A model generated the notes under the pieces. That model saw only the letters and a list, made by a program, of their open reading frames with translations, did not search any database and was not told where the DNA came from. A stretch of 21,871 nt of DNA, taken from a virus. Positions 1-16,021 of the stretch are shown here, one piece after another. Position numbers and translations under genes: made by a program. Each line of letters begins with the position of its first letter. The stretch's first letter is position 1. Where the stretch lies: IMG/VR virus record IMGVR_UViG_3300009593_000143, positions 1 to 21,871 of that record; one strand, written 5' to 3'.

Positions 1-2140
1 GTCCTGTGTCTGCTGTGGGATCTATATCATGCGCTTCCTTGAGGGTTTCTTGTGCTTGTGCCTCTAGGGATGCTTGCTTCTTTTGCAATTCTTCAAAGTC
101 CTTGAAACCAAGATTTTCTGCTATTTTTTTCTGCCTGCCTTCATCCGCACCTTTTTCATCAGTTGTGACAGTCTGAACCCTTTTTAAGACATTTGCCTCG
201 TCTTGTATCTTTTGTGCTTCTTCTTTTTTCCTTTTTGCTTCAACCTCATCCAAACTGAACATGCTACGGATTAAGGAGTTAGAGGTGAATCCTGTGAGGA
301 AATCTCCGAAGGATTGCATTGCAGGGAAGATGTCATCTCGAATCATGGGGACCAATTTTCCAACAATCTCTTGCTGGGCAAATCTTTCGAAAGAGTCAAG
401 AAGGTCTGTTGCTTTTCCGGTTGCGAACTGATCGAACCCGAATGCTGCGGCAATCTGTATTCCTACCTTCTTTGCGATGCCTGCTATTCTTTCCATAATA
501 GTCATGGTTTCTCTACCACGTTTTGAGAACTCGTTGAAACTTTGAGTTGCTTGCTCGACTGCGGTTAAGGAATCTTCTTCGATCTTTCCGGTGAACATCT
601 GTCTTGCTTTTACAAAATCTAAACCTGCTGCTTCGGCTAATGCCTCTTGTTCGAGAAGACTCATATCCTCAAAAGATTTTCCAGTGGCATCGAAGGAGTC
701 CTTTATCTTCTTCATTACTGCTTCCGGACCTTGGGCCCTTAGTTCCATCAGTTCCAAACTGTCAAGGAACTGTCCACCCATGATGAAGTTTAAATCTGCA
801 ACAGAATCTGCTGCTGAGTCGAAGGTCTTAAACTTGTCTGCCAACTGCACAACGTCACTCATTTCTACACCGAGTTGTCGGGCAGCAGACATCGTTCTTA
901 GAAAGACCTTTTCTGATCTGTTGCCGAAAACTGCGAAAGTGGCCTGAGTGCTGGTGAACTGCTTACTCAAATCTGAGAAGTCCATGCCCATTGTGACGGC
1001 AGCTGCATTGAGGTTTTGTATTGATTGTTTCACATCTTCAGTACTTCTTCCAAGACCAATGGTTTGAAACTTTGTTATTTCTGTGAGATCTTGGATGTCC
1101 ATTCCCAATCTCTTTGCTTCTACTCCGAGTTTTGCAAAGTCACCCATAGTATCTATACCCATGCCACCGACTCCTCGAAGGGATGTGCCGAGTTCAACCA
1201 TCATGTTTGTCAGCTGCCCTGCGTCTGTGCCTGTTTGATCTAAGGAACTTGCGACATCGATATATTGTTGTGCGAAATCTCTACCGTGTCCTGTTGTTTT
1301 TGCAATGCTTGCACCGAGATTATCAAAGAAGAGAATAGCACCTATTACTGCCTCGACTGCTGCTTGAAGGATTCGGGTTACTCCTCCGACTCCTATTTCG
1401 ACCGCAGCAGCTGCAATGTTTGTTTTTGTGAGTGATTTCCTAAACTCCAGTGTGCCAGACTTCATTTGTTCTAATGCGCTTTTGCCTGATTCGCCATCCC
1501 TAATGATGGAACCCAAGAAACCACCGAGTCCCTTGTTTGGTTGCGATTTTAATCTCATGGCTTTTAGGGCACTATTTGTAATACCCTTGACAACCTCTCC
1601 GGTTTCGATAGCTGCCTCGTTTGCCTCTTCATCGAGTTTCTTGCTTACGTTTTTTTCCCTATTTTGCTTTATTAACTCTTTGGTGATTTCTTTTCGCGCG
1701 TCGTCTTCAATCTCTAGAAATTCTATCTGCTTCTTTACCTGCTCACCTTGCTCCATTTTGATCTTCAGGATCTCTTCTTCTTCTTTAGTCTTGTCGGTTT
1801 TGAGTGCCAGATTTTGAATCTCTAGATCCAACTCCTTATCTCGTTCCTCCAATTGTTCTTTTAAAATGTTTAAACTTGCCTGATCCTCTTTTTTATGAAG
1901 TTCCTTGATCGCCAGCAAGTCTCGCAAATGATCCTTCTCGACTTGCCTCTGCCTCTCCTTCTCCAATCTTAACTTCTCGGAGAAAACTGAGGCAGATTCG
2001 CGTTCGGAACCATCAATGTCAAATCTAGCATCTCCCTGTGGTTGACCAGGTTGAGGTTCTGTGCTTTCGTTTGACTTTTTAAGTTGTTTTGTGAACTCTT
2101 TTAATGCAGCTTTAAGTGCATTCAGATCTGCTTCGTTCAT
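1..2140 (-). CDS. Tail tape measure protein (C-terminus beyond left edge)
   Basis: Translating the minus strand from the ATG at 2138-2140 gives 713 codons with no stop up to the left edge, so the gene is 3'-truncated. The start is preceded by a G-rich Shine-Dalgarno-like run (2147-2153), six bases upstream. Residues about 55-180 are highly charged and rich in Glu, Lys, Gln and Leu, which suggests a long coiled coil. A hydrophobic Ala/Val/Ile segment follows at about 241-273, then a helical part containing FAVFGNRSEKVFLRTMSAAR. This architecture, and the position after the tube gene and the putative chaperone genes, fit a tape measure, which sets tail length and is packed inside the tube before ejection with the DNA. 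The full length, and so the tail length, cannot be estimated here. The family call is by architecture and context, not by a specific signature. Confidence 0.82.
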   Translation of the reverse strand, partial: MNEADLNALKAALKEFTKQLKKSNESTEPQPGQPQGDARFDIDGSERESASVFSEKLRLEKERQRQVEKDHLRDLLAIKELHKKEDQASLNILKEQLEERDKELDLEIQNLALKTDKTKEEEEILKIKMEQGEQVKKQIEFLEIEDDARKEITKELIKQNREKNVSKKLDEEANEAAIETGEVVKGITNSALKAMRLKSQPNKGLGGFLGSIIRDGESGKSALEQMKSGTLEFRKSLTKTNIAAAAVEIGVGGVTRILQAAVEAVIGAILFFDNLGASIAKTTGHGRDFAQQYIDVASSLDQTGTDAGQLTNMMVELGTSLRGVGGMGIDTMGDFAKLGVEAKRLGMDIQDLTEITKFQTIGLGRSTEDVKQSIQNLNAAAVTMGMDFSDLSKQFTSTQATFAVFGNRSEKVFLRTMSAARQLGVEMSDVVQLADKFKTFDSAADSVADLNFIMGGQFLDSLELMELRAQGPEAVMKKIKDSFDATGKSFEDMSLLEQEALAEAAGLDFVKARQMFTGKIEEDSLTAVEQATQSFNEFSKRGRETMTIMERIAGIAKKVGIQIAAAFGFDQFATGKATDLLDSFERFAQQEIVGKLVPMIRDDIFPAMQSFGDFLTGFTSNSLIRSMFSLDEVEAKRKKEEAQKIQDEANVLKRVQTVTTDEKGADEGRQKKIAENLGFKDFEELQKKQASLEAQAQETLKEAHDIDPTADTG

Positions 2141-2146
2141 CAGTTA

Positions 2147-2153
2147 CCCCCCT
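2147..2153 (-). promoter_or_regulatory. Ribosome binding site of the tape measure gene
   Basis: The minus strand reads AGGGGGG, six bases before the ATG at 2140. It overlaps the stop codon region of the upstream 108-residue gene, so the two genes are probably translationally coupled. This site decides the start of the edge-truncated tape measure frame. Confidence 0.55.
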
Positions 2154-2478
2154 ATTTGAAAGGCCACTTAATCTTTGTGCTTTTCTCGAAATTACGAACT
2201 GCTGATTTTAAGCTTGCTCGATTTCTGTGCGTGATCGGATTATCTAAACCATATCTTTGATATGCTGATAAGTATCTCTTTTCTTTGCCGAGGACTCTTG
2301 CAAAGTCTTGAATCTGATTCTTAGTTCCTTTGACGTTTACTGGAATAGCAACACTGTCTCCGAAGACGTACCTCATTGCTACTTTCACCAAACTACCAAA
2401 TGCCTTGAGGAAACTCTCGTTGAGTTCACCATTGGCAGCAGCATTGAGATCGATTGTCATAGGTTCTTTATTTTCCAT
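2152..2478 (-). CDS. Conserved-looking small protein upstream of tape measure, function unknown
   Basis: This gene encodes 108 residues from the ATG at 2476-2478. A longer reading from a TTG at 2493 is unlikely because that codon abuts the Shine-Dalgarno GGAGG (2487-2491), which sits eight bases before the ATG. The N-terminal half is acidic to neutral (ENKEPMTIDLNAAANGELNE) and the C-terminal half is basic, with an aromatic-rich segment (KEKRYLSAYQRYGLDNP) and a terminal KIKWPFK. There is no signal peptide or membrane segment. It lies between the putative tail chaperone ORF and the tape measure and its stop overlaps the tape measure ribosome binding site, so a role in tail assembly is likely by context only. 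I do not recognise a named family. Confidence 0.75.
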   Translation of the reverse strand: MENKEPMTIDLNAAANGELNESFLKAFGSLVKVAMRYVFGDSVAIPVNVKGTKNQIQDFARVLGKEKRYLSAYQRYGLDNPITHRNRASLKSAVRNFEKSTKIKWPFK

Positions 2479-2486
2479 ACACGAGT

Positions 2487-2491
2487 CCTCC
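2487..2491 (-). promoter_or_regulatory. Ribosome binding site choosing ATG 2478
   Basis: The minus strand reads GGAGG with an eight-base spacer to the ATG at 2478. The alternative TTG start at 2493 directly abuts this site and so cannot use it. This supports the 108-residue form of the protein. Confidence 0.6.
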
Positions 2492-2497
2492 AACTAA

Positions 2498-2525: not shown

Positions 2526-2753
2526 TCATCTTCTTTTTGATGCCTTTTCACTTGCCTCTCTTTCGTCTGCAAACTGTTTAACGAGTCTATCCAGAAACCA
2601 TCGACGGATTTTGATCGGAAGATTGTATGCTTCCATGAATCCCCACCCACCATGATATTTTAGGTTAAAGAATTCCTCATAAACAGATTGAATATAATCA
2701 TTGCTCAGGCCAAAAAAACGCGGGAGTGATGGGAACCTCCAAAGTCCCATCAT
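2526..2753 (-). CDS. Putative tail assembly chaperone extension, likely expressed by frameshift from the upstream gene
   Basis: This 75-codon frame overlaps the last 56 bases of the gp26/gp51-family gene. Its own first codons (ATG ATG at 2748-2753) have no Shine-Dalgarno sequence. The unique part after the overlap is compact and aromatic-rich (SVYEEFFNLKYHGGWGF, then EAYNLPIKIRRWFLDRL) and ends in a charged, probably helical tail. In other long-tailed phages the genes just before the tape measure often encode two tail chaperones joined by a programmed frameshift. A shift at the T7 run (2712-2718) would join residue 281 of the upstream protein to the GLSNDY segment of this frame, giving about 342-343 residues. 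A separately initiated 75-residue protein is the alternative. That the frame is coding is fairly sure; how it is expressed is inference. Confidence 0.72.
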   Translation of the reverse strand: MMGLWRFPSLPRFFGLSNDYIQSVYEEFFNLKYHGGWGFMEAYNLPIKIRRWFLDRLVKQFADEREASEKASKRR

Positions 2754-3555
2754 AGTTACACGACTTGCATTGGAATTCGTGATTCAGCTTCATAGTGGGG
2801 TTGATCAGTTTATATATTCCCCTGATATATTTCGAATCCATTGCAGGCATTGTATCTACAAACTGAGAAATGGTTGTTGATTCTGTTATACCATTAACAC
2901 TCCTAATCATCCTCTTTACCATGTCGGTTAAGGAGGAAGGAGGTAGTTTGTGTTTCTCACGATTCTTCTCTGCTTTTTCTAGATCTGTCTCATCTCTCGA
3001 TGTCAAGAACTTCATCTCCACTTTGTGACCAGACTTTGGCATAGTCAATAGTGGAAACCCACCATCACTTACCTCGATGTCGTCTAAGTGTTCGATAGCA
3101 TCTTTTGTTGCACCACTGAATTGCTTGCTGTCTTCAAGGTCCACTTCCATCTCTTCTCGTGAGTTGCAGTCTGGGCATGAAAACTTGGCAGAATACTCTG
3201 TGCCATATCCTGATATTCTTGCTGCTACAACGAGAGCATTCTTGTCTCCAATAAGGAGGTCGGAAACTTTTATATTCCTATCAACGATGATGCTCTGTAG
3301 CAGTCTGTCTATTGCGATTCCCTGCTTCAACAATGCAGGGGAGTTGAGGATGTCCTCCTCTTTTGCAGTCATGTACTTTATTTCCACCATCTCTTGTTTG
3401 TATAGAGCATGGTCTTCTGCATAGTATCTTCCACCGGATGGGAGTTCAACAAACTCTGTCGGAACTGCAAAACTTAGCTGATCCCCAGATACAGAAACAG
3501 GGGCAGAAGTATCCACTTCCCCCCCGATTTTGTCGAGATTATTTCTTTTTGTCAT
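2698..3555 (-). CDS. T4 gp26/gp51-family baseplate hub assembly protein
   Basis: This gene encodes 285 residues from the ATG at 3553-3555, with a short AGG six bases upstream. I assign it to the T4 baseplate hub assembly family (gp26/gp51 type) from its FVELPSGGRYY, EIKYMTAKEEDIL and NALVVAARISGYGTEYS segments. Two CxxC pairs, CPDC at 127-130 and CKSC at 263-266, could bind one zinc ion in a ribbon-like fold. The C-terminus ends with TPAFFWPEQ, and the FFW codons form a run of seven T residues just before the stop. It follows the tube gene by 17 bases and overlaps the next ORF in another frame. Known relatives act in tail or baseplate assembly; a chaperone-like role for the tape measure is an inference from its position. 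It is longer than I remember for T4 gp26. Confidence 0.85.
   Translation of the reverse strand: MTKRNNLDKIGGEVDTSAPVSVSGDQLSFAVPTEFVELPSGGRYYAEDHALYKQEMVEIKYMTAKEEDILNSPALLKQGIAIDRLLQSIIVDRNIKVSDLLIGDKNALVVAARISGYGTEYSAKFSCPDCNSREEMEVDLEDSKQFSGATKDAIEHLDDIEVSDGGFPLLTMPKSGHKVEMKFLTSRDETDLEKAEKNREKHKLPPSSLTDMVKRMIRSVNGITESTTISQFVDTMPAMDSKYIRGIYKLINPTMKLNHEFQCKSCNYDGTLEVPITPAFFWPEQ
2712..2718 (-). other. Candidate programmed frameshift site (T7 run)
   Basis: The minus strand reads GCG TTT TTT TGG in the frame of the gp26/gp51-family gene, five codons before its TGA stop. A +1 slip of a UUU-decoding tRNA, or a -2 slip, keeps perfect codon pairing and enters the overlapping downstream frame at GGC. 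A -1 slip instead meets a TGA two codons later (TTG GCC TGA), so only +1 or -2 is productive. Because TTT TTT TGG also encodes the C-terminal Phe-Phe-Trp, the run could arise from amino-acid constraint alone. Confidence 0.5.
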
Positions 3556-3572
3556 TTATTACCTACGCTTTC

Positions 3573-4136
3573 TTAACCTTGTGCTTTGAAGAACTCTCCA
3601 GCACCTTCACCGCCAGCAGCATTACTTGTATCGCATTCTGCCCAATCATATCTTATCGTAAGTGTGACATTTGTTAAGTCATCAGACTCATAATTTAATT
3701 CACCCCAATCAATATTGGTGATAAATGCATTTTTTAGAGTCCATACTTCTACTTCGTCGGTGCCGTCGTTAGAGAACTGACGAATCTTTACCTGACCGAG
3801 AGCATCTACTGCTTTTTTCTTGGTGATAGCATCTGTCATAGTTGCGTTACCAGGAACAATGTATCCACTATCTTGCAATGCTTCTGCCATAAGTCCAGCA
3901 GCATTAGGTGAGATAGGATCTACTAGAGTTACGTTAACCGTATCCCATTCGACTCGACCAGGATAATAGAAAGTATGATTAAGGTACTTGTGACTTACTT
4001 CACCAACTGTTGCTGATGGTTTCTTTACCTGAGTTACCAACCAAGTGTTCTCTGCACCGATTGCACCCATTGATAAAGTGAACCTATATGCTCTTTTAGG
4101 TGATGTTGAGGGGTTTGTCCAAAAATTAGTTGCCAT
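3573..4136 (-). CDS. 19: Tail tube protein, T4 gp19-like
   Basis: This gene encodes 187 residues, close to the length of T4 gp19. The ATG at 4134-4136 follows a strong AAGGAG nine bases upstream, as expected for an abundant protein. The N-terminus (FWTNPSTSPKRAYRFTLSMG) and the pattern KKPSATVGEVSHKYLNHTFYYPGRVEWDTVNVTLVD, quoted here only as positions about 37-73, fit the tube fold, in which stacked hexameric rings form the DNA conduit. The C-terminal half (about 130-172) has the expected alternating beta pattern ending in LTIRYDWAEC. It lies directly after the sheath gene, the usual order in T4-like and most contractile-tail phages. No anomaly is seen. Confidence 0.9.
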   Translation of the reverse strand: MATNFWTNPSTSPKRAYRFTLSMGAIGAENTWLVTQVKKPSATVGEVSHKYLNHTFYYPGRVEWDTVNVTLVDPISPNAAGLMAEALQDSGYIVPGNATMTDAITKKKAVDALGQVKIRQFSNDGTDEVEVWTLKNAFITNIDWGELNYESDDLTNVTLTIRYDWAECDTSNAAGGEGAGEFFKAQG

Positions 4137-4178: not shown

Positions 4179-7040
4179 TTAGTCATCAAAAGATGCGCCA
4201 CTGCGAAGAATAGTAAAATCAATCGCAATATACTCGGCAGTTCTTGTTGGTTTCAACAAAACCTTAGCATACATGATATTTCTATCAACTAAGTCTGCTG
4301 TAGTCGTTGAGTCGTCCAAGACAACCTTAAAATCTGTTAGACCGAAGTCGTTCTTGATTTGCTCCAAGAATGGATTTGCCTGACCTGTGAATCGATCCCA
4401 TGTTGCCTGAACATTTGGAGTGAATAACAAAGTGGAAGCAATTCTTGAAATGCCCTTCTTAACGTGAATCATTAATCGACGAACGTTAATTCTGTCAAGT
4501 GCCGAAGGAGTAGTTTGAAGTGTCTTTTGACCGAACACTACAATACCTTCTGCTGGGAACTTAGCAATCGGGTTTACACTTCTCTCATAGAGTTTATCTC
4601 TATCTTTTCTTGAGAGTTGCTCACGAACACCGACGACAGGGATACCTGCTGCTCCATCAGTCAACCCACCTCTGGTGAATCCTGCTGGTGCGAACCAAGG
4701 TGCTGCTTTCTTGTCCGTTGTTGAGAAAGTGCCTAATGCTGCTACTGAAGGTGGCATCCATACTAAGGAACCTGCTCCAGAAGTGTCTCTCACTTGAACC
4801 CAAGGGTGGAATGTACAAGCATAACTCGTATTCAATCCACGATTCTTTAAGTTACTAATGATACTATCCGTAGAACCCTGTCTTGCTGAAGCAGCAGAGA
4901 TGGATTCGTGGAGTGGTTCATAACCACCTGGTAGGTCGATAACGGCAAGTGCGTCACCTCTTGATTCACATGTAGTGATCAAGTGGTCAGTAATGCTCGT
5001 GTTCGTGATACCTGGAATGGATGCGAGGTTCATCTCGACAACTTCCGAATCTGAAACAGTATCGATTGCTCTCTTCATCGAGTAGAAAGCAGAGTTTGTT
5101 TGTTCTGTTGCACTACCTAGACCTGAGTTTCTAAAAGGATCTCTTTCTTTAATGTCGAGTCCGTCTGCACCACCGAAAAGTGGCATAGTAAAGGAATCGA
5201 AACCTGCGTCGAGGACAGATGTGTATGAACCAAAGTTCGTGCTACCTGCTGGTGCCCTTGAAGAGTTACAAGCAGTGATTGAGTTTCCTGCTACTCTCGA
5301 ACCTGCGAAATAAACACCATGAGATGTGATTCCGTTTGAGGCAGATACATAGTGAACGTCATCTAACGAGAAAGTAAACTGATAATCCATGTTTGATGCT
5401 GCACCGTTAAAAGAATCATAGCTGCTTGGTTTTGCTCTTAGCAAATCAAGGTTACTCTTCTCAAACTGGTTTGTCGTTCTCTCTGTAGAATCAAAACCGA
5501 AGTATGCGGCAGCTGCGTCTGTCAACCCACCAGCAGAACTAGATGTTCTTAATGCTACTTTTGGGAAAGTTGCTGTGATGGCATTAAGTTGACAGGACAA
5601 AGTTCCTGTGATAACCAAATCCACACCGTCTCTGTTTCCACCACCGATGATGGTTTGAGCAAGACTGTCGGCAGCAACAAGAGTTGTTCCTGTCATGGTT
5701 TCTCCACCAGTTCCACCGAAAGTAGTTGACTCCAACATTGTTGGACCCTTAAAACCGAAAGGAAGACTCAATGGGTTCAAGGAACCATTTGAAGTTTTTT
5801 CTGCCAACTCGACTCTGATGTAGTTAGACTGATTATTGTAATCTCCATACACCTTAAATCTCTTCTTGTCATCATCCCAAGTTCTGTACTTGTCTCCGAT
5901 CTTCTTAGCAACATAGTTTGCTGAGTTTGGATTCAAGTTACACCCTGTGAATGCTTCTAAGATCTTAACGTCACCGTCATGATCCTTCATGTTACGAACG
6001 ATAACAGAGAATGTTCCGTATTCGTCGTTAGTAGGATCTAGGGATGCTTTGATGTCTGCGATTGATACCTTAACACTTCTCTGGACTTCTTCACCTTCAT
6101 CAAGTGCGACGAGTTTGAAGAGACTCTCCATTGAAGCTGCTGAGTAACCTGCATTGTTAGTTGTCAAATCTTGTGCGATAACCCAACCTGACTGAGCAGC
6201 AGTTACTGCTCTTTCTGCAACGTGACCGTTGGCGATTGGGAGGACAAATGCGAATGCTTTGCCTGAATCTGCGTTTGATGCTCCGCAAGAGTCATAAACA
6301 CTTCTCTCGAACGTTTCGCCCAAGAAGTAATCAGATTTTGCTGTGTTGATCGCACCTAATAAGGTAGGATCTGTGTTAAAAACTTTTCTAATATAGAGGT
6401 CTGAGTTTGGATTTAAGTTAAATGAGGAAGTAAGGGTTGCTGATGCACCTTTCCCGATCACTGCTTTAAACTGAAAATCACCACCACTGCTCTTTACAAC
6501 TGTACCTGCACCGTCACCACCTGCTTGACCACTTGGGTAGTTTCCTTGTAGTTTGACGTATCCACCGTCAAGATACCAGACTGCTGCGAGTGTTGCCGTT
6601 AGGGTATTCGAACCTGAAGGCATTACGAATAGACCGTAAGCTCCACCATTCGCTGTTGCGTCACTACCTGGGGCGGTGACTGCCCAACCTGCTGCACCTG
6701 CGGAGGTTGCGTTTGGATGTTTTGCACCCAACAAACGAACTACCGTTAGAGCATTTGAATTCTTTAACCATGCTTGTGCAGCATAGCTAGCATACATAGG
6801 GGAAGTTCTATTCCCACTTCTCCATACATCTCCAGTCTCACCTCCAGCAACGGGACTTCCAAATACTGCCTCAAACTCTGCCATTGAGGAAACTTTAACT
6901 GGTTTTAGTCCTGGACCTCTGAGGGTTCTTCCGATGACTACTGGACCGATATCCTGTGGGGTTTTTGGGAGTTGGGAGTTATCGATTTCGTCGAGAAATA
7001 CTCCGGGGGATACAAACTTAAATTTTCTTGAATCTGCCAT
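4179..7040 (-). CDS. 18: Tail sheath protein, T4 gp18-like, oversized
   Basis: This gene encodes 953 residues from the ATG at 7038-7040. A TTG two codons upstream is too close to the AAGGAG (7051-7056) to be the start. The N-terminus has the sheath hallmark KFVSPGVFLDEIDNSQLP followed by GPVVIGRTLRGPG, and a later segment reads YASYAAQAWLKNSNALTVVR. The conserved C-terminal part runs from about 690 and includes WFAPAGFTRGG, RDKLYERSVNPIAKFPAEGI, VFGQKTLQ and NVRRLMIHVKKGI, ending with the last strand YIAIDFTILRSG. T4 gp18 has 659 residues, so about 300 more are present, mostly between about 110 and 640, probably as surface-exposed insertion domains. Sheath subunits contract around the tube to drive it through the host envelope. 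Confidence 0.93.
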   Translation of the reverse strand: MADSRKFKFVSPGVFLDEIDNSQLPKTPQDIGPVVIGRTLRGPGLKPVKVSSMAEFEAVFGSPVAGGETGDVWRSGNRTSPMYASYAAQAWLKNSNALTVVRLLGAKHPNATSAGAAGWAVTAPGSDATANGGAYGLFVMPSGSNTLTATLAAVWYLDGGYVKLQGNYPSGQAGGDGAGTVVKSSGGDFQFKAVIGKGASATLTSSFNLNPNSDLYIRKVFNTDPTLLGAINTAKSDYFLGETFERSVYDSCGASNADSGKAFAFVLPIANGHVAERAVTAAQSGWVIAQDLTTNNAGYSAASMESLFKLVALDEGEEVQRSVKVSIADIKASLDPTNDEYGTFSVIVRNMKDHDGDVKILEAFTGCNLNPNSANYVAKKIGDKYRTWDDDKKRFKVYGDYNNQSNYIRVELAEKTSNGSLNPLSLPFGFKGPTMLESTTFGGTGGETMTGTTLVAADSLAQTIIGGGNRDGVDLVITGTLSCQLNAITATFPKVALRTSSSAGGLTDAAAAYFGFDSTERTTNQFEKSNLDLLRAKPSSYDSFNGAASNMDYQFTFSLDDVHYVSASNGITSHGVYFAGSRVAGNSITACNSSRAPAGSTNFGSYTSVLDAGFDSFTMPLFGGADGLDIKERDPFRNSGLGSATEQTNSAFYSMKRAIDTVSDSEVVEMNLASIPGITNTSITDHLITTCESRGDALAVIDLPGGYEPLHESISAASARQGSTDSIISNLKNRGLNTSYACTFHPWVQVRDTSGAGSLVWMPPSVAALGTFSTTDKKAAPWFAPAGFTRGGLTDGAAGIPVVGVREQLSRKDRDKLYERSVNPIAKFPAEGIVVFGQKTLQTTPSALDRINVRRLMIHVKKGISRIASTLLFTPNVQATWDRFTGQANPFLEQIKNDFGLTDFKVVLDDSTTTADLVDRNIMYAKVLLKPTRTAEYIAIDFTILRSGASFDD

Positions 7041-7050
7041 TTTCAACTTT

Positions 7051-7129: not shown

Positions 7130-7945
7130 TCACACTTTCTTTATGGTCTTCTCGGATAGAATTGTCTTCTCTCCAGTTATTTTAATCTTGGCTACACCCT
7201 CTTGCTTGAGGATTTTGGGAGAATCGTCATTAGAATCCTGACCGTACAAGTAACCTAACACATTGATAGTTATTGATGTTTGATAAATTCTTTCTTCCTG
7301 TTCGACGGCAGAGATATTATTGTCGAAAGAGAAATCAGATTGGACGAATGCTTCGTAGTGATGTCCGTCTTTTTCTATTAGAAAACTGTTTATATTCCCT
7401 GTCTTAGTCATGAACGGTTGTAGTATCTCGTTCATCTGTTGTTGATACTCTGTTCTCAAAGTTATTAAGTAACTCATATCAACATATGTTGGAGTTTTTA
7501 TGAAGTAAGACTGTTGGACGACGTTGGGGTTGTTGAATCGAAAGTTGTCCTGCTTAAATGTTTTCTTAGAGTTTGTATTTGCAAAATTTGCCGTCTTATC
7601 TTGCTTTATCTCACCATGAGTGTATAGTGTGAAATTGTTATGCTTATTTATTGGAGGCAAATATGCTTGTAGAGATCCACGACGTGCTGCGTCTTTGTTC
7701 ATCGCAGTTCTCTCAACGGAGATTACTGGGAAAATTAGAGATCCTTCTGAATCTCTTAGTTCTTTCCTGTTCTTGATCTGGAATGATCTTTCTCCACTGA
7801 CCCATATCACGGGAACCTTTTTAAATCCCTTGTTAGTGGTTGCATGGATATCCATTGATTTGTCTACCCACTCATAGAGAGCAAAATCAACTGTTTCTAT
7901 CCTTGAAGGTTCGAGTGTTAAGACACTATCTTGTTTTTTTGTCAT
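7130..7945 (-). CDS. 15: Tail completion / sheath terminator protein, T4 gp15-like
   Basis: This gene encodes 271 residues, almost exactly the length of T4 gp15 (272). The pattern FKKVPVIWVSGERSF followed by FPVISVERTAMNKDAAR parallels the KFIRVPITYASKEHF region of T4 gp15. The C-terminal half has the helix YLITLRTEYQQQMNEILQPF and then strands ending in SITINVLGYLYG, matching T4's order of features. gp15 caps the finished tail as a hexamer and docks it to the neck. The ATG at 7943-7945 is 12 bases after the stop of the preceding gene and has only a weak Shine-Dalgarno (AAGA), so translational coupling is likely. The neighbours on both sides are neck and sheath genes, which supports the call. 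Confidence 0.82.
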   Translation of the reverse strand: MTKKQDSVLTLEPSRIETVDFALYEWVDKSMDIHATTNKGFKKVPVIWVSGERSFQIKNRKELRDSEGSLIFPVISVERTAMNKDAARRGSLQAYLPPINKHNNFTLYTHGEIKQDKTANFANTNSKKTFKQDNFRFNNPNVVQQSYFIKTPTYVDMSYLITLRTEYQQQMNEILQPFMTKTGNINSFLIEKDGHHYEAFVQSDFSFDNNISAVEQEERIYQTSITINVLGYLYGQDSNDDSPKILKQEGVAKIKITGEKTILSEKTIKKV

Positions 7946-9400: not shown

Positions 9401-12400
9401 CTATGATCCATATACAAAAGATATTCGAGACAAATATCCCGTCCAGTCTTTGTGTGCGGTTATTCTTATTACTAAATAGTCTGCATCACCCCCCGAAGTG
9501 CCGTTTAAGGTTGCAGTTCGAAAGTTTATGCCGTAAGCAGTGCCATCTGCATCGACAGTTTGGTTAACGTCGTTGCCTCCTCCGTTGAATCCACCGACAT
9601 CGTTTATCACATTCTCTGAAACCGATGCAGGTCTGGCAAGGTCTAACCAACCTGTGTCTCCTGGTATCTTTACTTCGCAATGAATGTTCTTATTTGCTCC
9701 TGGTGATCCAGTGTTGAATGCTCCACCTTTTGCGACGAGGTTGGCATCACCATACAGAGTGACAGTTGCCAAAGAGACATCTCCAACATTATTAGAACGA
9801 AAATATCTATAATACTCCCTCGTTGCGGTGGAAAGGGAAGAGTAGTTGGGATTTCCTGTTGGTGCCTGTAGTTGTCCTGAGTTTGCTACTGATCTATAAT
9901 CTCCGTTTAGTCCACCTTTTGCGGGGGAGACAAGACGACCACTGTAGATAGACAATCCGTTGGAGTATGTTGCGTGTGATCCCACATCGTTGACACTCAC
10001 TGTGGAGTTCCATTTGTTGCCAGCATTAGTGACACTTGCTTGATTTACATAGGAACCTGATTGAAGTCTATACTTCTCACCATCCATAGGTTCATTGATG
10101 TTTATATTCCCAGTCTCACTGCCACTGAAAACCAAGAAACTATGCTTGCTCAATGTTGAAGTGGTCAAGTTTGACTTTATCGGATGTTTCACCCTTGAAC
10201 TTACAGATGCAGTGTGGGAAACAGATGCGTGGGCTCCTACTAAAGACGTTGCTGGATCGAAAACTATTGTTCCTGTCACAAACATCACTTGTGCTTCGGA
10301 GTTTGCACTTGTTGACAACGAAGGTATTGCCTTGGTTGCTCCATTGGTTGTGCCTGGTGATGCAAGTCCAGTGCCATTGGTTGTTATTTTTGTCGCTGTT
10401 GTGTTCGTTGTCGTTGGGAAACTTATGCCATCACTCGATCTGTAATATACGTTGCGGTGAGCATGTGATACTATATATCGATAAGATGAAGAGCATGCCG
10501 TGAAATATCTAACACCCGACATGGAATAGAAGGAACTTCCGGAGAAATCATCGATAGTGAGTTCGGTTGCAGCAAGAGCATTGCTGTCGGGATCGTTCAC
10601 CCACTCAACATAGTTAGTTACAGTTTGTCCGATTGTAGATCCCGAGTGTATAACCCTTGCATAGTTCCATCCGGTTCTCTGATCTGCTGTTCCTACTTGA
10701 TATTTTCCTGTTCTATAAGTTTTTGTATAATCTGGTAAGTTGTTGGACGCATACTTTCCTGCATCAAAAACACTCAAACTTACAAAACCAGAACCATTTC
10801 CGTTTACTTCCGAATCTGTACCGGAGCCAGGATTGCCTGCACCGACGGAGTTGCTAGTTAGGTCGATGCTGTGAACGACTGCTCCATTTACTTCAAGTTT
10901 TAGATTACCGAGGGCACCGTTTCTGAAAGAGTTGGCAACATAACTTGGAGTATTTGCATTAACATCTTCATTTAGTTCTCCGTCGATGACGACGGAACCG
11001 TTGAACACACCTGCGATGTCTCCACTGTCTAGGAAGTTTCCGTTTACGTCGATTGCAGAGTTTCCTGTGCCTGTGCCAACGTTAGTGTATCCAGATACTG
11101 CCTTGGAAGAACCGAAAGATAGCTTTACATCCTCTCCGTTATCGTTGATATCAACATCGTCGAGGGCAGGTGCTTCGGAGGGTGTTGCTCCCGTTCCAGC
11201 ACCAAAGGATACGGTGATGTCGTCAACATATCCAGTCCAAGATGTGTTCGACTCCACCTTCAAAACAATATCGTCACCATTAGCAACACCCTTTGTGCCA
11301 AATGACATATAATTGGTAGCATCTACTGAATTGTCAAAGTTCAAAACATATGCTCCCGATCCGTTTGATGTGCTGTCGTATGTAAATGCCTGTGCCACGT
11401 CCATCCAACCTGTAGTTCCTGGTATCTTTATGAATGCTTTTATTCTACCTGAGTTTAGTGCTGTTCCTTCTGGAACTATTGTAGTGGAACTTCCTTCGAT
11501 TGTTAAGACAATATCTCTTTTGGTTGCTCCGGTGGAGTTTCTAAAATATCTATAGAATGTTCTCAATCCAGACACACCAGAATAGTTCGGGTTTCCAGAT
11601 GGTGCTACACCTAGTGGTCCACCTTCACTATCGTCACGGAAGTCACCATTGTTGAGGGTTGCGAGTGGAGAATAGAGTCGAGCATTATAGAACTGCAATC
11701 CATCAGAATGATTTCCACCACCAGTCATGTGAGTTTGTGAGTTCCAAGTTCCACTATCGACATCAGATTGTGCGTTATACGATCCCGATGCTAGACGATA
11801 AGTTTCTGCCTTGAATCTCTCTCTTAGTGCGGTTGAGTTCCCTGCGATGTTGTAAACGAGAAGACCTGTTAGGTGTGCTGTTCCCGCATTACTAAGATCT
11901 GACTTGAGTGGGTGGGCAACATTGACCTTTGATGTTATAGTTCCACTGAGGAATGTAGTCCCTGAAGATGTTGCACTTCCTGTAATGCTCAATACTTTTG
12001 TCTCATCTTCTCCTGCCCCTGTGTTTAGTGACGGAAATGCTTGTGATGAAATTGCACAACTCGTGTTCGTAAATGAGATATTCTGTGTCGTATATACATT
12101 CCTGTATGCGTTGTTGACATCAACGAGATAGTTTGCCGAAACTGAAGTGAAGTATTTTACACCGGAGAGATACTTTGCTCCTGATCCTGCTGCACTTGCG
12201 AACCTCGCATTTGTAGCAGTAAGGGCATTGCTGTTATTGTCATTCACCCACTGGACATGGTTTGTTGTTTTAAGTCCCCAAGATCCTGAGTGTTTCACTT
12301 CTGCATAGTTCCACCCGTTTCTCTGATCTGCTGCTGCGACTTTGTAATCTGCGGTTCTGTGTTGGAAGATGCTAAACGCATTCTGACTTCTGTCTTGTGC

Positions 12401-15400
12401 TGAAGACGTAGTTGATACATTGAAGAATCCTGATCCGTTGCCGTTGAGGTGATTACCTGTGCCACTGCCTGGATTTCCAGAACCGATAGAGATGGAGGTT
12501 AAATCTATGCTGTGTAGCAATGCTCCATTTGCGAACAACTGAAGTGCCCCAGATTCTGCATTACCAAAAGAGTCGGCAGGGTAGTTTACAACATTATTGT
12601 CATATGTGTCTGTTGCGATATGAAAGTTCACCTCTCCATTGATCAGGGTAGCTCCGTTGAACGTTCCTCGGCGAAGGTTGTTACCAGAATTCTGTGCTTG
12701 ACTCGTATCATTAACGTTCAATCCCGCAAACTCATCGTGAGTTGTTACATTTGTATATCCAGATATGGTGTTTGCCGCACCGAATGATAGTTCAGCAGAA
12801 ACTCCTGTGTCTGCACAATCTATTCTCGAAACATCAGGTGCTGGTGATGGTGCAAGTATTTTTAGAATCTCATTGAACCTATCGATAGAAACACCAATAG
12901 AAGTGGTACTTGTGAAGTCTGTAAAAAGACCGTCGGCATAAGATCCATCTTCTGCGTTCCCGATGGTTGTAGTTCCTCCACCTCCTCCGGTGGAAGAGAT
13001 AGTTATTTGACCACTAGAACCTGTCACTAGAGTAACATTAGAACCTCCAATGAGGTAGGGATTGCCGTTTCTGAGTTTTGTCAATGAACCTGTCAAACCA
13101 GTGGCAATGAGATTACCAACCGTTACATTGTTTGTTGTTGTGGACCCGTTGTCAGTTACCTGATCTAGTGTTGATGCTGTTGAGATTCCGGTAAGCTTAG
13201 ATCCGTCACCGTAGAATGCTGATGCTGACATGTTTATCGATGCAGACAAGTTTCCGATGATCGTGGCATTACCTGTATGAGAACCATCCCATTCTGCTGT
13301 TATTCCCGTCAAACCTGCACCACTACCTACAAAAGATGTTGCAGTGATCGTGGCAGAAGATGAGAGGTTGCCTTGTATAGTTGCATTACCTGTGTGACTA
13401 CCATCCCACTCAGCAGTGACACCAGTCAAGTTTGATCCGTCACCATAAAAGGATGATGCAGATATGTTCAGGGATGCTGACAAACTTCCGACACTGAGTG
13501 CGTTTGTTGTTGTTGCTCCATTCTGAGTAACATAATCTAGTGTAAAATCTGTTGCATGCTTTGAATCTACAGTGTTTGCGTCAGCTGCCTGAGCAACTGT
13601 TCCTACAATGTTGCCAGCTGCGAGATTCGTAAGGGCTGCACCGTTTCCGACAAACGTTGTCGCAGTTATTTGAGCCGAAGAAGACAAGTTTCCTACAATA
13701 GTTGCATTACCCGTATGACTTCCATCCCATTCCGCTGTCACTCCCGTTAAACTAGATCCATCTCCGATAAATCTTGTGGCAGTTATTACTGCTGATGAAG
13801 AAAGGTTGCCCTGTATGGTTGCATTTCCAGTATGGCTTCCATCCCATTCAGCAGTAACACCTGTAAGATTAGATCCGTCACCATAGAAAGAAGATGCCGA
13901 TATGTTCATCGATGCTGATAGACTTCCCACTGCTAAGCTGTTGTTGGTAGTATATCCATTAGACGTAACGTAATCTAAATTGAATTGGGCAGCATGTTTT
14001 CCGTCGAGGGTGTCTGCATTTACTGCACTGGTGGCATTGGCAACTGCACCGTCTACATATGCTCCAGCAATATATGATGCTGTTTGGGCATGAGATGCTG
14101 ATAATGCTGATGCTACACGGCCATCGACGTAGGTTGCTGCAATGTATGAAGCAGTTTGGGCATGAGATGCAGATAATGCTGATGCGACACGACCATCAAT
14201 CTTGGATGCTTGTACATAGGATGCAGTTTGTGCTGTGACGGCATTTGTTGCATTAGCAATAGCTCCCACAATGTTTGCCGCAGTTAGGTTAGTGAGGTTT
14301 GCACCGTTTCCAGTAAAAGATAGAGCAGACATTCCCAACGAAGAACTAAGTGTTCCTTGTATGGTTGCATTTCCGACGTGACTACCATCCCACTCAGCAG
14401 TGACTCCGGTGAGGTTTGATCCGTCACCATAAAATCCCGATGCGGATATGTTCATTGAAGCAGATAAGGTGGAAACAGATAGGGCTGTGGTGGTGGTGGC
14501 ACCTCTTGCGGTGATACTCTGTAGTGTATCCTTTTCTGCATAGTAACTTGCTGTTTGTGCAGTCACCACATAAGATGCTGTCTGTGCTGTTACCGCATTA
14601 GTCGCATTGGTTGCTAATGCGACGGTACCGTTGACATTAGAACCGAGAATGTAAGATGCTGTAAGGGCATTTGTTATAGTTCCAGTAAGGTTTGCAGAAG
14701 ATGCAATTGTAATTGTGTTGGTGCTGGAATCTAAATCAATGTTACTACCTGCAACAAGGGACTTGAACTGTAGTTCTTTTCCTACCTTCTGAGAGAAGAC
14801 TCCTTCTCCTCCTCCGATGTTACGACCAGTATTGACTTCTCCGTCTGCTGTCACAAAATTGGCATTGTCACACAACTCTGTGGAAGTCATGTCTATAATC
14901 TTTCCGTCTACTTTTTGTTTTGCTAACCTAAATACACCTTCTCTAGATCGAATACATGTTGCGACGATTTCAAACTTCTGATCCACTTGACCATAAAGTT
15001 GTCGAGGTTGACCAACTGTTGTGATTTCGTAAAGAATCTTGCCGTATAGAACAAAGTCACCCTCTCTTACAAAGAGGTTCTGATCTTCTGCCAGTCGTCT
15101 CTTGTGAAACCTTACTGTAATCTGCGATCTTCTGTCTATTCCGAGATTTGTATAGGTTGTATCCGAACCTTCCCAAGATACTGCGGCAAAGATCCTCATC
15201 GGAGGTAGGAAGGTTTTCTTTACTGCCTCTCCATAAAGATCGTGAAAGTTACTGTGTGTTACACTTACGGGGAAATAGACGACTTGCTGACCGATTACTC
15301 GTTCTAACAACTCATCTCCGACTTGCTTTACTAAGTTTGTCTCTTTTTGCCCTGTGAAGAGTGGTGGCGGGGGATTTAATGGACGTTTGGATATTTCGTC

Positions 15401-16021
15401 ACATACCGCAGGGGTATCTCCCGAACCTCCTGTAGAGGTTCCTGTGCCGTCTAAGACATTAAGTTCATTTATGGGGTCACAAGGGGCAGCAGTTAGTCTT
15501 GGATCGTCTTCATCAGATTGTACCTTCTTTTGTTCTGGAAATACTCCGTCTCTTGCCCTAATACACGTTGCTACGATTTCGATTTGACTGTCTACTTGAC
15601 CAAATAGGGGTCTTGGTTGCCCAAGTGCTGCAATCTCATAAAAATGAGTGCCATATAAAACAAAGTCTCCCTCTCTTACGAAAAGGTTTTTGTCTTCCGT
15701 TATCCTTCTTTTGTGAAAGTGGATTGTTATAGAAGACTTCTTGTCTATTCCAAAATTATTTGTAGTGGTTTGTTCTTGTTCTCTCTCAACATACGCACTG
15801 ATGTGAACTGGTGGCAGAAAACTCTTGTTTACAGCTTCTCCATAAAGGGAGTGATAGTTGCTGTGCTTCAGACTGATGGGATAGTAAACAACCTCCGACT
15901 TTATGACTCTTTCAGTGAGTTCATCGGTGACTTGTTTTACAAGGTCTTTTTCTTTTTGGCCCGTAAACAACGGTGGTGGAGGTGCTTCCGGTTGTTTCCA
16001 GACGTTATCGTTATCTGACAT
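9401..16021 (-). CDS. Giant neck-fibre protein: two tandem gp14-like domains fused to fibre repeats and duplicated C-terminal modules
   Basis: This gene encodes 2206 residues from the ATG at 16019-16021, with GGAGG five bases upstream overlapping the gp13 stop. Residues about 16-165 and 218-365 are two diverged copies of a T4 gp14-like neck domain; each has LFTGQKE, YHSLYGEAV or FHDLYGEAV, FLPP, FHKRR, NLFVREGDFVLYG and EIVATCIR. T4 gp14 has 256 residues and no fibre. Residues about 420-960 are low-complexity, fibre-like repeats (FYGDGSNLTG, AEWDGSHTGNATI, AQTASY). Residues about 1064-1610 and 1615-2206 are a large duplicated module, each copy with a GWNYA core, YRYFR and a terminal WTGY. The context (gp13 before, gp15 later) supports a neck location. 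It probably builds the gp14 ring and projects a fibre from it. The receptor and oligomeric state are unknown. Confidence 0.85.
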   Translation of the reverse strand: MSDNDNVWKQPEAPPPPLFTGQKEKDLVKQVTDELTERVIKSEVVYYPISLKHSNYHSLYGEAVNKSFLPPVHISAYVEREQEQTTTNNFGIDKKSSITIHFHKRRITEDKNLFVREGDFVLYGTHFYEIAALGQPRPLFGQVDSQIEIVATCIRARDGVFPEQKKVQSDEDDPRLTAAPCDPINELNVLDGTGTSTGGSGDTPAVCDEISKRPLNPPPPLFTGQKETNLVKQVGDELLERVIGQQVVYFPVSVTHSNFHDLYGEAVKKTFLPPMRIFAAVSWEGSDTTYTNLGIDRRSQITVRFHKRRLAEDQNLFVREGDFVLYGKILYEITTVGQPRQLYGQVDQKFEIVATCIRSREGVFRLAKQKVDGKIIDMTSTELCDNANFVTADGEVNTGRNIGGGEGVFSQKVGKELQFKSLVAGSNIDLDSSTNTITIASSANLTGTITNALTASYILGSNVNGTVALATNATNAVTAQTASYVVTAQTASYYAEKDTLQSITARGATTTTALSVSTLSASMNISASGFYGDGSNLTGVTAEWDGSHVGNATIQGTLSSSLGMSALSFTGNGANLTNLTAANIVGAIANATNAVTAQTASYVQASKIDGRVASALSASHAQTASYIAATYVDGRVASALSASHAQTASYIAGAYVDGAVANATSAVNADTLDGKHAAQFNLDYVTSNGYTTNNSLAVGSLSASMNISASSFYGDGSNLTGVTAEWDGSHTGNATIQGNLSSSAVITATRFIGDGSSLTGVTAEWDGSHTGNATIVGNLSSSAQITATTFVGNGAALTNLAAGNIVGTVAQAADANTVDSKHATDFTLDYVTQNGATTTNALSVGSLSASLNISASSFYGDGSNLTGVTAEWDGSHTGNATIQGNLSSSATITATSFVGSGAGLTGITAEWDGSHTGNATIIGNLSASINMSASAFYGDGSKLTGISTASTLDQVTDNGSTTTNNVTVGNLIATGLTGSLTKLRNGNPYLIGGSNVTLVTGSSGQITISSTGGGGGTTTIGNAEDGSYADGLFTDFTSTTSIGVSIDRFNEILKILAPSPAPDVSRIDCADTGVSAELSFGAANTISGYTNVTTHDEFAGLNVNDTSQAQNSGNNLRRGTFNGATLINGEVNFHIATDTYDNNVVNYPADSFGNAESGALQLFANGALLHSIDLTSISIGSGNPGSGTGNHLNGNGSGFFNVSTTSSAQDRSQNAFSIFQHRTADYKVAAADQRNGWNYAEVKHSGSWGLKTTNHVQWVNDNNSNALTATNARFASAAGSGAKYLSGVKYFTSVSANYLVDVNNAYRNVYTTQNISFTNTSCAISSQAFPSLNTGAGEDETKVLSITGSATSSGTTFLSGTITSKVNVAHPLKSDLSNAGTAHLTGLLVYNIAGNSTALRERFKAETYRLASGSYNAQSDVDSGTWNSQTHMTGGGNHSDGLQFYNARLYSPLATLNNGDFRDDSEGGPLGVAPSGNPNYSGVSGLRTFYRYFRNSTGATKRDIVLTIEGSSTTIVPEGTALNSGRIKAFIKIPGTTGWMDVAQAFTYDSTSNGSGAYVLNFDNSVDATNYMSFGTKGVANGDDIVLKVESNTSWTGYVDDITVSFGAGTGATPSEAPALDDVDINDNGEDVKLSFGSSKAVSGYTNVGTGTGNSAIDVNGNFLDSGDIAGVFNGSVVIDGELNEDVNANTPSYVANSFRNGALGNLKLEVNGAVVHSIDLTSNSVGAGNPGSGTDSEVNGNGSGFVSLSVFDAGKYASNNLPDYTKTYRTGKYQVGTADQRTGWNYARVIHSGSTIGQTVTNYVEWVNDPDSNALAATELTIDDFSGSSFYSMSGVRYFTACSSSYRYIVSHAHRNVYYRSSDGISFPTTTNTTATKITTNGTGLASPGTTNGATKAIPSLSTSANSEAQVMFVTGTIVFDPATSLVGAHASVSHTASVSSRVKHPIKSNLTTSTLSKHSFLVFSGSETGNININEPMDGEKYRLQSGSYVNQASVTNAGNKWNSTVSVNDVGSHATYSNGLSIYSGRLVSPAKGGLNGDYRSVANSGQLQAPTGNPNYSSLSTATREYYRYFRSNNVGDVSLATVTLYGDANLVAKGGAFNTGSPGANKNIHCEVKIPGDTGWLDLARPASVSENVINDVGGFNGGGNDVNQTVDADGTAYGINFRTATLNGTSGGDADYLVIRITAHKDWTGYLSRISFVYGS
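9404..12832 (-). repeat. Tandem C-terminal modules of the neck-fibre protein
   Basis: Two modules of about 550-590 residues (residues 1064-1610 and 1615-2206) align over their whole length. Shared landmarks in the same order are LSFG, SGYTNV, a NG-rich turn, HSIDLTS, GNPGSGT, NGNGSGF, ADQR.GWNYA, HSGS, NALxAT, GNPNYS, YRYFR, IPG.TGW and a final W-TG-Y. The copies differ strongly in detail, so the duplication is old. They are likely beta-rich distal domains of the fibre, but I recognise no named family. Confidence 0.8.
9473..9480 (-). promoter_or_regulatory. ACTATTTA motif inside the end of the neck-fibre gene
   Basis: This copy lies within the last codons of the 2206-residue gene (encoding part of DYLV) and 81 bases before the ATG at 9391. 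The ten-base context ACTATTTAGT equals that upstream of the sheath gene. It could serve the downstream surface protein gene, or be a chance consequence of coding. Confidence 0.3.
13187..14434 (-). repeat. Fibre repeats: F-x-G-x-G-x-x-LT and AEWDGSHTGNATI
   Basis: About eight copies of a short unit of the type FYGDGSNLTG occur here, at residues about 530-945 of the neck-fibre protein. Five of them are followed by GVTAEWDGSHTGNATI or a one- to two-residue variant and a short Ser-rich link. Interspersed are AQTASYIA-YVDGRVA units. At the DNA level the copies share stretches such as CCATCCCA with mostly synonymous changes around them, which points to selection on the protein sequence. Confidence 0.85.
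14927..15370 (-). repeat. Second gp14-like neck domain
   Basis: This stretch encodes residues about 218-365 of the neck-fibre protein. It repeats the order of motifs in residues 16-165: LFTGQKE, VVYFPVS, DLYGEAV, FLPP, FHKRR, LFVREGDFVLYG, GQPR, EIVATCIRSREGVF. A Pro-rich segment (NPPPPLFTGQ) restarts the unit exactly as in the first copy. Confidence 0.82.
15527..15976 (-). repeat. First gp14-like neck domain
   Basis: This stretch encodes residues about 16-165 of the neck-fibre protein, with the motifs LFTGQKE, VVYYPIS, SLYGEAV, FLPP, FHKRR, LFVREGDFVLYG, GQPR and EIVATCIRARDGVF. The order of features (YYP near the start, a conserved Phe-Gly with hydrophobic strand, EGD before a Tyr or Phe strand) parallels T4 gp14. 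Confidence 0.8.

Follow-up and report, generated by a model that had tools for sequence, protein, structure and literature searches.

A +1 frameshift probably yields two forms of a tail assembly chaperone in T4-related phages

How many proteins does a T4 gp26/gp51-type gene encode when a second reading frame runs on past its stop codon? This question is raised by a locus in the IMG/VR virus record IMGVR_UViG_3300009593_000143. The window, i.e. the whole stretch of DNA analyzed here, comprises 21,871 bases, and the gene of interest lies on its minus strand. The gene ends with the codons GCG (2719-2721), TTT (2716-2718), TTT (2713-2715), TGG (2710-2712), CCT, GAG, CAA and TGA (2698-2700), with a run of seven T residues at 2712-2718. 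A second ORF, at 2526-2753, overlaps this end in the +1 (= -2) frame and remains open for about 62 codons past the site, while a -1 slip would read TTG GCC TGA and stop immediately. The small ORF has two ATG codons in the window (2750-2753), which lack a Shine-Dalgarno sequence, and the pair recurs only in the closest relatives. The positions, the open +1/-2 frame, the gene end, the lack of a ribosome binding site and the early stop after a -1 slip had all been correctly described in the original prediction, which proposed a frameshift that fuses a tail-chaperone extension onto the gp26/gp51-type protein. The comparative evidence presented below strongly supports this proposal. With a probability of roughly 0.9, we take the phage to be a T4 relative with a contractile tail and the locus to be its tail assembly chaperone (TAC) gene, from which a +1 frameshift yields two forms.

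Table 1. Position and assignment of the chaperone locus and the neighboring tail genes in the window
Feature	Position	Strand	Basis or remark
Probable TAC-N, short tail assembly chaperone gene, 285 aa	2698..3555	-	PF12322 / phrog_150 (T4 gp26/gp51 family)
Putative slippery site UUU UUU UGG	2710..2718	-	conserved across 194 distinct relatives, natural variants included
Predicted extension in the +1 frame, forming the C-terminal part of TAC-NC; three predicted helices; DUF6760-like	2526..2717	-	
Whole frameshifted gene; predicted fusion TAC-NC, 342 aa, junction AFFGLSN	2526..3555	-	obtained by translating past one skipped base
Tail tube protein, gene directly preceding TAC-N in transcription	3573..4136	-	phrog_4542 tail tube, E 9.7e-27
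Tail sheath protein	4179..7046	-	phrog_23 tail sheath, E 3.2e-67
Probable tape measure protein, 713+ aa, cut by the window end	2..2140	-	position and make-up

The short protein matches the Pfam family T4_baseplate (PF12322) with an E-value of 3.3e-15 and 56.8 bits, against a curated cut-off of 24.5, and PHROG 150 (baseplate hub) with an E-value of 5.5e-18. Among its homologues, 53/66 match PF12322 and 65/66 match phrog_150. One PF12322 copy is present in the window, the record being a 21.9-kb fragment. The genes are transcribed in the order sheath, tube, PF12322 gene with its extension, a 113-aa ORF and the presumed tape measure gene. The product of the latter consists of a coiled coil followed by hydrophobic stretches and has no profile match; in the window itself it is placed as tape measure by position only, and its equivalent is annotated as tape measure in phages immuto, SP-15 and LIS04, which share the same gene order. 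The PF12322 gene lies between the tube gene, identified by profile, and the tape measure gene, identified by the annotation of relatives, and its slot is that of tail assembly chaperones in long-tailed phages. From sequence and position, the PF12322 gene is best read as a TAC gene with a short form, TAC-N, and a frameshifted form, TAC-NC.

Several neighboring ORFs were recorded as well. No convincing Pfam or PHROG match was obtained for the 113-aa ORF that follows the extension (2152-2493, minus strand), and a 271-aa ORF upstream of the sheath gene (7130-7945, minus strand) has no PHROG match. Further upstream, the minus strand encodes a fibre-like protein of 2206 aa (9401-16021), in which an N-terminal module of about 190 residues (PPPPLFTGQKE...) is present twice and is followed by many short repeats.

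To collect relatives, viral contigs were scanned with the small ORF, the window protein and the Mel-JY01 and immuto homologues; the window protein, like one further scan, gave little. Together, the scans returned 246 loci with a located site, 194 of them distinct after removal of near-copies. The second frame lies at +1 in all 246, so that a different frame relation was not encountered among them. Another 12 loci, from MAGs, came from a search through contigs of bacterial and archaeal genomes; 11 of these reach the gene end, and all 11 show the arrangement. The bins holding these relatives belong to several phyla. One relative with the same +1 site sits in CP070664.1, the MAG of a WOR-3 bacterium whose record gives it as a chromosome of 2.8 Mb; either a prophage or faulty binning could account for this. 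The same arrangement is present in the cultured Microcystis phage Mel-JY01 and Flavobacterium phage immuto.

The site itself varies within narrow bounds. Among the 194 distinct loci, it reads TTT TTT TGG CCT in 138, TTT CTT TGG CCT in 31 and TTT TTT TGG TCT in 12. Rarer variants are TTT CTA TGG (4 loci), TTC TTT TGG (3) and CTT TTT TGG (3), and in a few loci TAC replaces TGG (TTT TTT TAC in 2, TTT CTT TAC in 1). The codon in the A site is UGG in 191/194. The first Phe codon is TTT in 187 loci versus TTC in 3 and the second is TTT in 157 versus TTC in none, while elsewhere in the same ORFs Phe is encoded by TTT 1381 times and by TTC 498 times. Where Leu occupies the second position, its codon is always CTT or CTA. 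The relatives share ancestry, so these counts are not independent and are inflated. We controlled for this by comparing the site with other columns of the same codon alignment: the synonymous heterozygosity at the two Phe columns (0 and 0.03) is the lowest of 31 two-fold columns, the next lowest being 0.27 and the median 0.40. All 181 Pro codons in the column that follows TGG are CCT (181/181), in contrast to a heterozygosity of 0.60-0.72 at other Pro columns. This fixation is expected if its T must also serve a Leu codon in the extension frame. The zero-frame stop follows 5-8 codons from the first slip codon, and a -1 slip would meet a stop within 3 codons in 161/194 loci.

The original prediction had cautioned that a conserved Phe-Phe-Trp end might create the T run by itself. 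This caution is answered by the near-fixation of TTT TTT at a place where TTC would serve equally well. Relatives with TTC at the site amount to just 3/194 loci, and these still retain a slippable UUU U.

We then analyzed the extension as a protein. Past the zero-frame stop, pN/pS over 262 pairs is 0.20 in the extension frame, versus 1.46 and 1.94 in the other two frames; judged by these ratios, the extension is under purifying selection in the +1 frame only. Its Gly, Leu, Tyr, Pro and Arg residues match the core of the main domain in their invariance, an invariant Gly and Leu are among its first residues, and the conserved block begins exactly at the slip (FFGL). AlphaFold2 predicts the extension alone as three helices with a mean pLDDT of 93. 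A search of this fold against the PDB gave no match. Matches among viral folds are weak (E 0.2 and above, some with an rmsd near 1 Å) and are used as supporting information only; they include 'Gp51' of P-HM1, a baseplate protein of Klebsiella phage KPV15 and two tape measure chaperones (Moogle and Mica). It is hardly conceivable that the T run only encodes a conserved Phe-Phe-Trp and that the overlapping ORF arose by chance: the three residues are indeed conserved in the zero frame, but this idea is contradicted by the synonymous fixation of both TTT TTT and CCT, by the purifying selection on the extension and by its confidently predicted fold.

Could the extension instead be translated independently, from a start codon of its own whose use is coupled to ribosomes terminating on the upstream gene? 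Some relatives do have an ATG, GTG or TTG upstream, and the window has its two unconserved ATG codons. However, from the last stop of the extension frame to 10 codons past the slip, 63/194 loci contain no ATG, GTG or TTG, 67/194 have no start codon upstream of the slip in this frame, and in 84/194 the frame is closed by a stop within 10 codons upstream. A separate start would also leave the opening of the conserved block exactly at FFGL, and the fixed TTT TTT in loci whose extension frame is closed upstream, unexplained. The extension would thus generally not be able to be made on its own. In the GenBank record of immuto, just 36 aa of the extension are given, as a separate hypothetical protein (3833-3943); the immuto extension starts at the upstream slip site and not at the annotated ORF start.

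A further argument for a separate start comes from a side branch. Matches to PF20546 (DUF6760) are found for 34/65 homologues of the extension at E-values up to 1, the best being a subthreshold 3.8e-5, and the extension is distantly related to this family. The DUF6760 genes of actinobacterial injection-system-like clusters resemble the extension in this subthreshold homology and in following another gene, in their case a zinc-ribbon gene, the -1-frame DUF6760 ORF sharing an NTGA with the zinc-ribbon stop, downstream of a conserved G-rich stretch; the label Actinomycetota-type for these genomes refers to the phylum of one of them. This arrangement probably reflects re-initiation rather than a frameshift. 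One DUF6760 protein weakly matches GpE of phage P2 (E 0.019). The differences from our locus are the -1 frame, the apparent own start overlapping the upstream stop and an upstream gene without a PF12322 match. Taking both sides together, we consider separate initiation of the extension very improbable, and a frameshift fusing it to TAC-N remains our reading.

The +1 and -2 frames are identical, and the original prediction had left the choice between the two shifts open. Mu-like phages are reported to shift by -2. A slip of this kind along the U run would enter the same frame, with one Phe more at the junction (AFFFGLSN), and in the window U7 would keep UUU pairing after it. Natural variants break this re-pairing: TTC TTT TGG (3 loci) and TTC TTT CGT of Streptococcus phage GXN1 would put tRNA-Phe on UCU, a mismatch in the middle of the codon, and TTT CTA TGG (4 loci) would put tRNA-Leu on UUC with a third-position mismatch. 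These relatives do not show the compatible re-pairing of a Mu-type -2 site. All site variants permit a +1 shift, with tRNA-Phe moving from UUU to UUU or UUC, or tRNA-Leu from CUU to UUU; the latter is the slip known from the RF2 site. Since several of the variants break -2 re-pairing and all permit +1, we decide for +1 and regard a -2 shift as improbable.

Slippage could also happen during transcription, when RNA polymerase, on the T7 run, produced mRNAs one U shorter. An unbroken T7 is present in 152/194 loci, but a run of seven bases is on the short side for bacterial RNA polymerase to slip efficiently, and in 39/194 loci the longest T run is just 3-4 although frame relation and extension are the same. 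Because of these 39 loci, transcriptional slippage is most improbable as a general mechanism, and a translational +1 shift accounts for the arrangement better in our view.

We propose the following model for the expression of the locus. The majority of ribosomes would terminate at TGA and release the 285-aa TAC-N. A fraction would pause at UUU UUU UGG with peptidyl-tRNA-Phe in the P site, or tRNA-Leu on CUU in the variants. With UGG waiting in the A site, the peptidyl-tRNA may re-pair one base downstream, from UUU to UUU (or UUC in variants). The Trp codon would then drop out of frame, and +1 reading would yield the 342-aa TAC-NC with its three-helix C-terminal domain. If the two forms work as lambda gpG and gpGT do, the tape measure protein would be coated by the N-terminal part that both have in common, and tail tube subunits would be brought in by the C-terminal domain of the long form, the rarer of the two. 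Shifts by +1 usually go along with a slow codon in the A site (PMC10885494). As for other stimulators, a conserved downstream RNA structure was not detected, the stability of the region exceeding that of shuffled sequences only slightly (mean z -0.4 to -0.8, not beyond the control offset), and an upstream Shine-Dalgarno-like stimulator is not conserved, such a tetramer occurring within 20 nt in only 58/186. The support for the model is comparative: the frame relation, the fixed slip codons, the selection on the extension, the missing starts, the variants that fit +1 and the gene position all point to it. That ribosomes slip, how efficiently they would do so, and that the products act as chaperones are inferences.

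The direction of the shift is not uniform across the family. At the homologous Phe-Phe, the cultured jumbo phages RAS14, XacN1, PA5oct, CBB and Atu_ph07 carry a -1 extension at T TTT TTT or T TTT TTC, and SP-15, LIS04, Streptococcus phage GXN1 (site TTC TTT CGT) and an uncultured megaphage carry a +1 extension. In T4-like cyanophages, gp26 ends with TTT TTC or TTT TTA, and all 62 intact distinct loci on viral contigs (62/62) are -1. The Prochlorococcus phage P-HM1 illustrates this case: its gp26 ends at FF with an overlapping extension, and the annotated 53-aa 'gp51' (NC_015280, 9376-9557), whose fold resembles that of the window extension (TM 0.70, E 0.84), is best read as the end of the -1 extension of gp26. 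The cyanophages thus share the layout of the window lineage and differ in shifting by -1, at T TTT TTC or T TTT TTA, where the window lineage shifts by +1.

T4 gp26 has no overlapping extension. A profile of the fusion aligns to the T4 gp51 family colinearly to the gp51 C-terminus (probability 95%, E 6e-8). Its alignment to the last residues of gp51 is consistent with the possibility that gp51 is the long form encoded in one frame. A profile of the extension alone gave no significant match to T4 gp51, its score of 19 lying below the 24 reached by shuffled-column controls. In a protein tree of +1 sequences, the -1 sequences of the five jumbo phages and the proteins of T4, the -1 sequences group together; when the tree is rooted on T4, the +1 sequences do not form one clade, with only moderate support. 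Since other lineages shift by -1 at the homologous FF site, the direction of the shift has probably switched in the PF12322 family, and the tree, too, implies a change, from +1 to -1 or the reverse. It is likely that we are looking at one chaperone family with opposite frameshifts at the same Phe-Phe site. A very large uncultivated group would use +1, together with phages of Bacteroidota and Microcystis and those like SP-15; cyanophages and several jumbo phages would use -1; and T4 would have two genes and no frameshift. The direction would then have been reversed and the two-product output kept.

That tail assembly chaperones are made by -1 frameshifting is well established, as in lambda G/GT, T4 being an exception, and the shift in HSTV-2 is very likely +1 (PMC5009743). 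Like lambda gpG/gpGT, the locus described here has a short chaperone and a frameshifted long form just before the tape measure gene, and an extension ORF without its own start is joined at a conserved slippery site. It differs from lambda in direction, -1 being usual and not obligatory for G/GT-type chaperones, and in having UGG in the A site and none of the logic of a -1 heptamer. HSTV-2, a haloarchaeal myovirus, very likely also has a +1 shift in the tail assembly chaperone slot, and the likeness drawn here is one of slot and direction.

The original prediction held that such shifts had not been described for T4-like phages. This does not stand. Cyanophages and several T4-related jumbo phages have a -1 site, and according to the papers that cite it, the work of Vladimirov, Gautam and Davidson (2022, Virology 566:9-15) already identified the TAC genes of T4-like phages. 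In the parts of the literature available to us, separate short and long TAC genes are reported for some T4-like phages (PMC10885494) and poly-T -1 signals for the TAC-N genes of others (PMC12846349). The chaperone identity of gp26/gp51 and the -1 cases are, going by these texts, prior art. The texts citing Vladimirov et al. mention that identity and the -1 cases and, in what they report, neither a +1 direction nor the lineage of the window; because of this, we take the +1 class to be new, as far as could be checked through the citing papers.

Together, our results suggest that T4-related phages may reach the same two-protein outcome by a +1 shift, a -1 shift or gene duplication. For annotation, they imply corrections in public phage genomes, where the extension has been missed, truncated or called a separate protein. 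Programmed +1 frameshifts are few in bacteria and phages. The 194 distinct sequences form a large natural series of one +1 site with informative variants, and the re-pairing rules are therefore directly testable for a class of forward shifts for which no general motif is known (PMC10885494).
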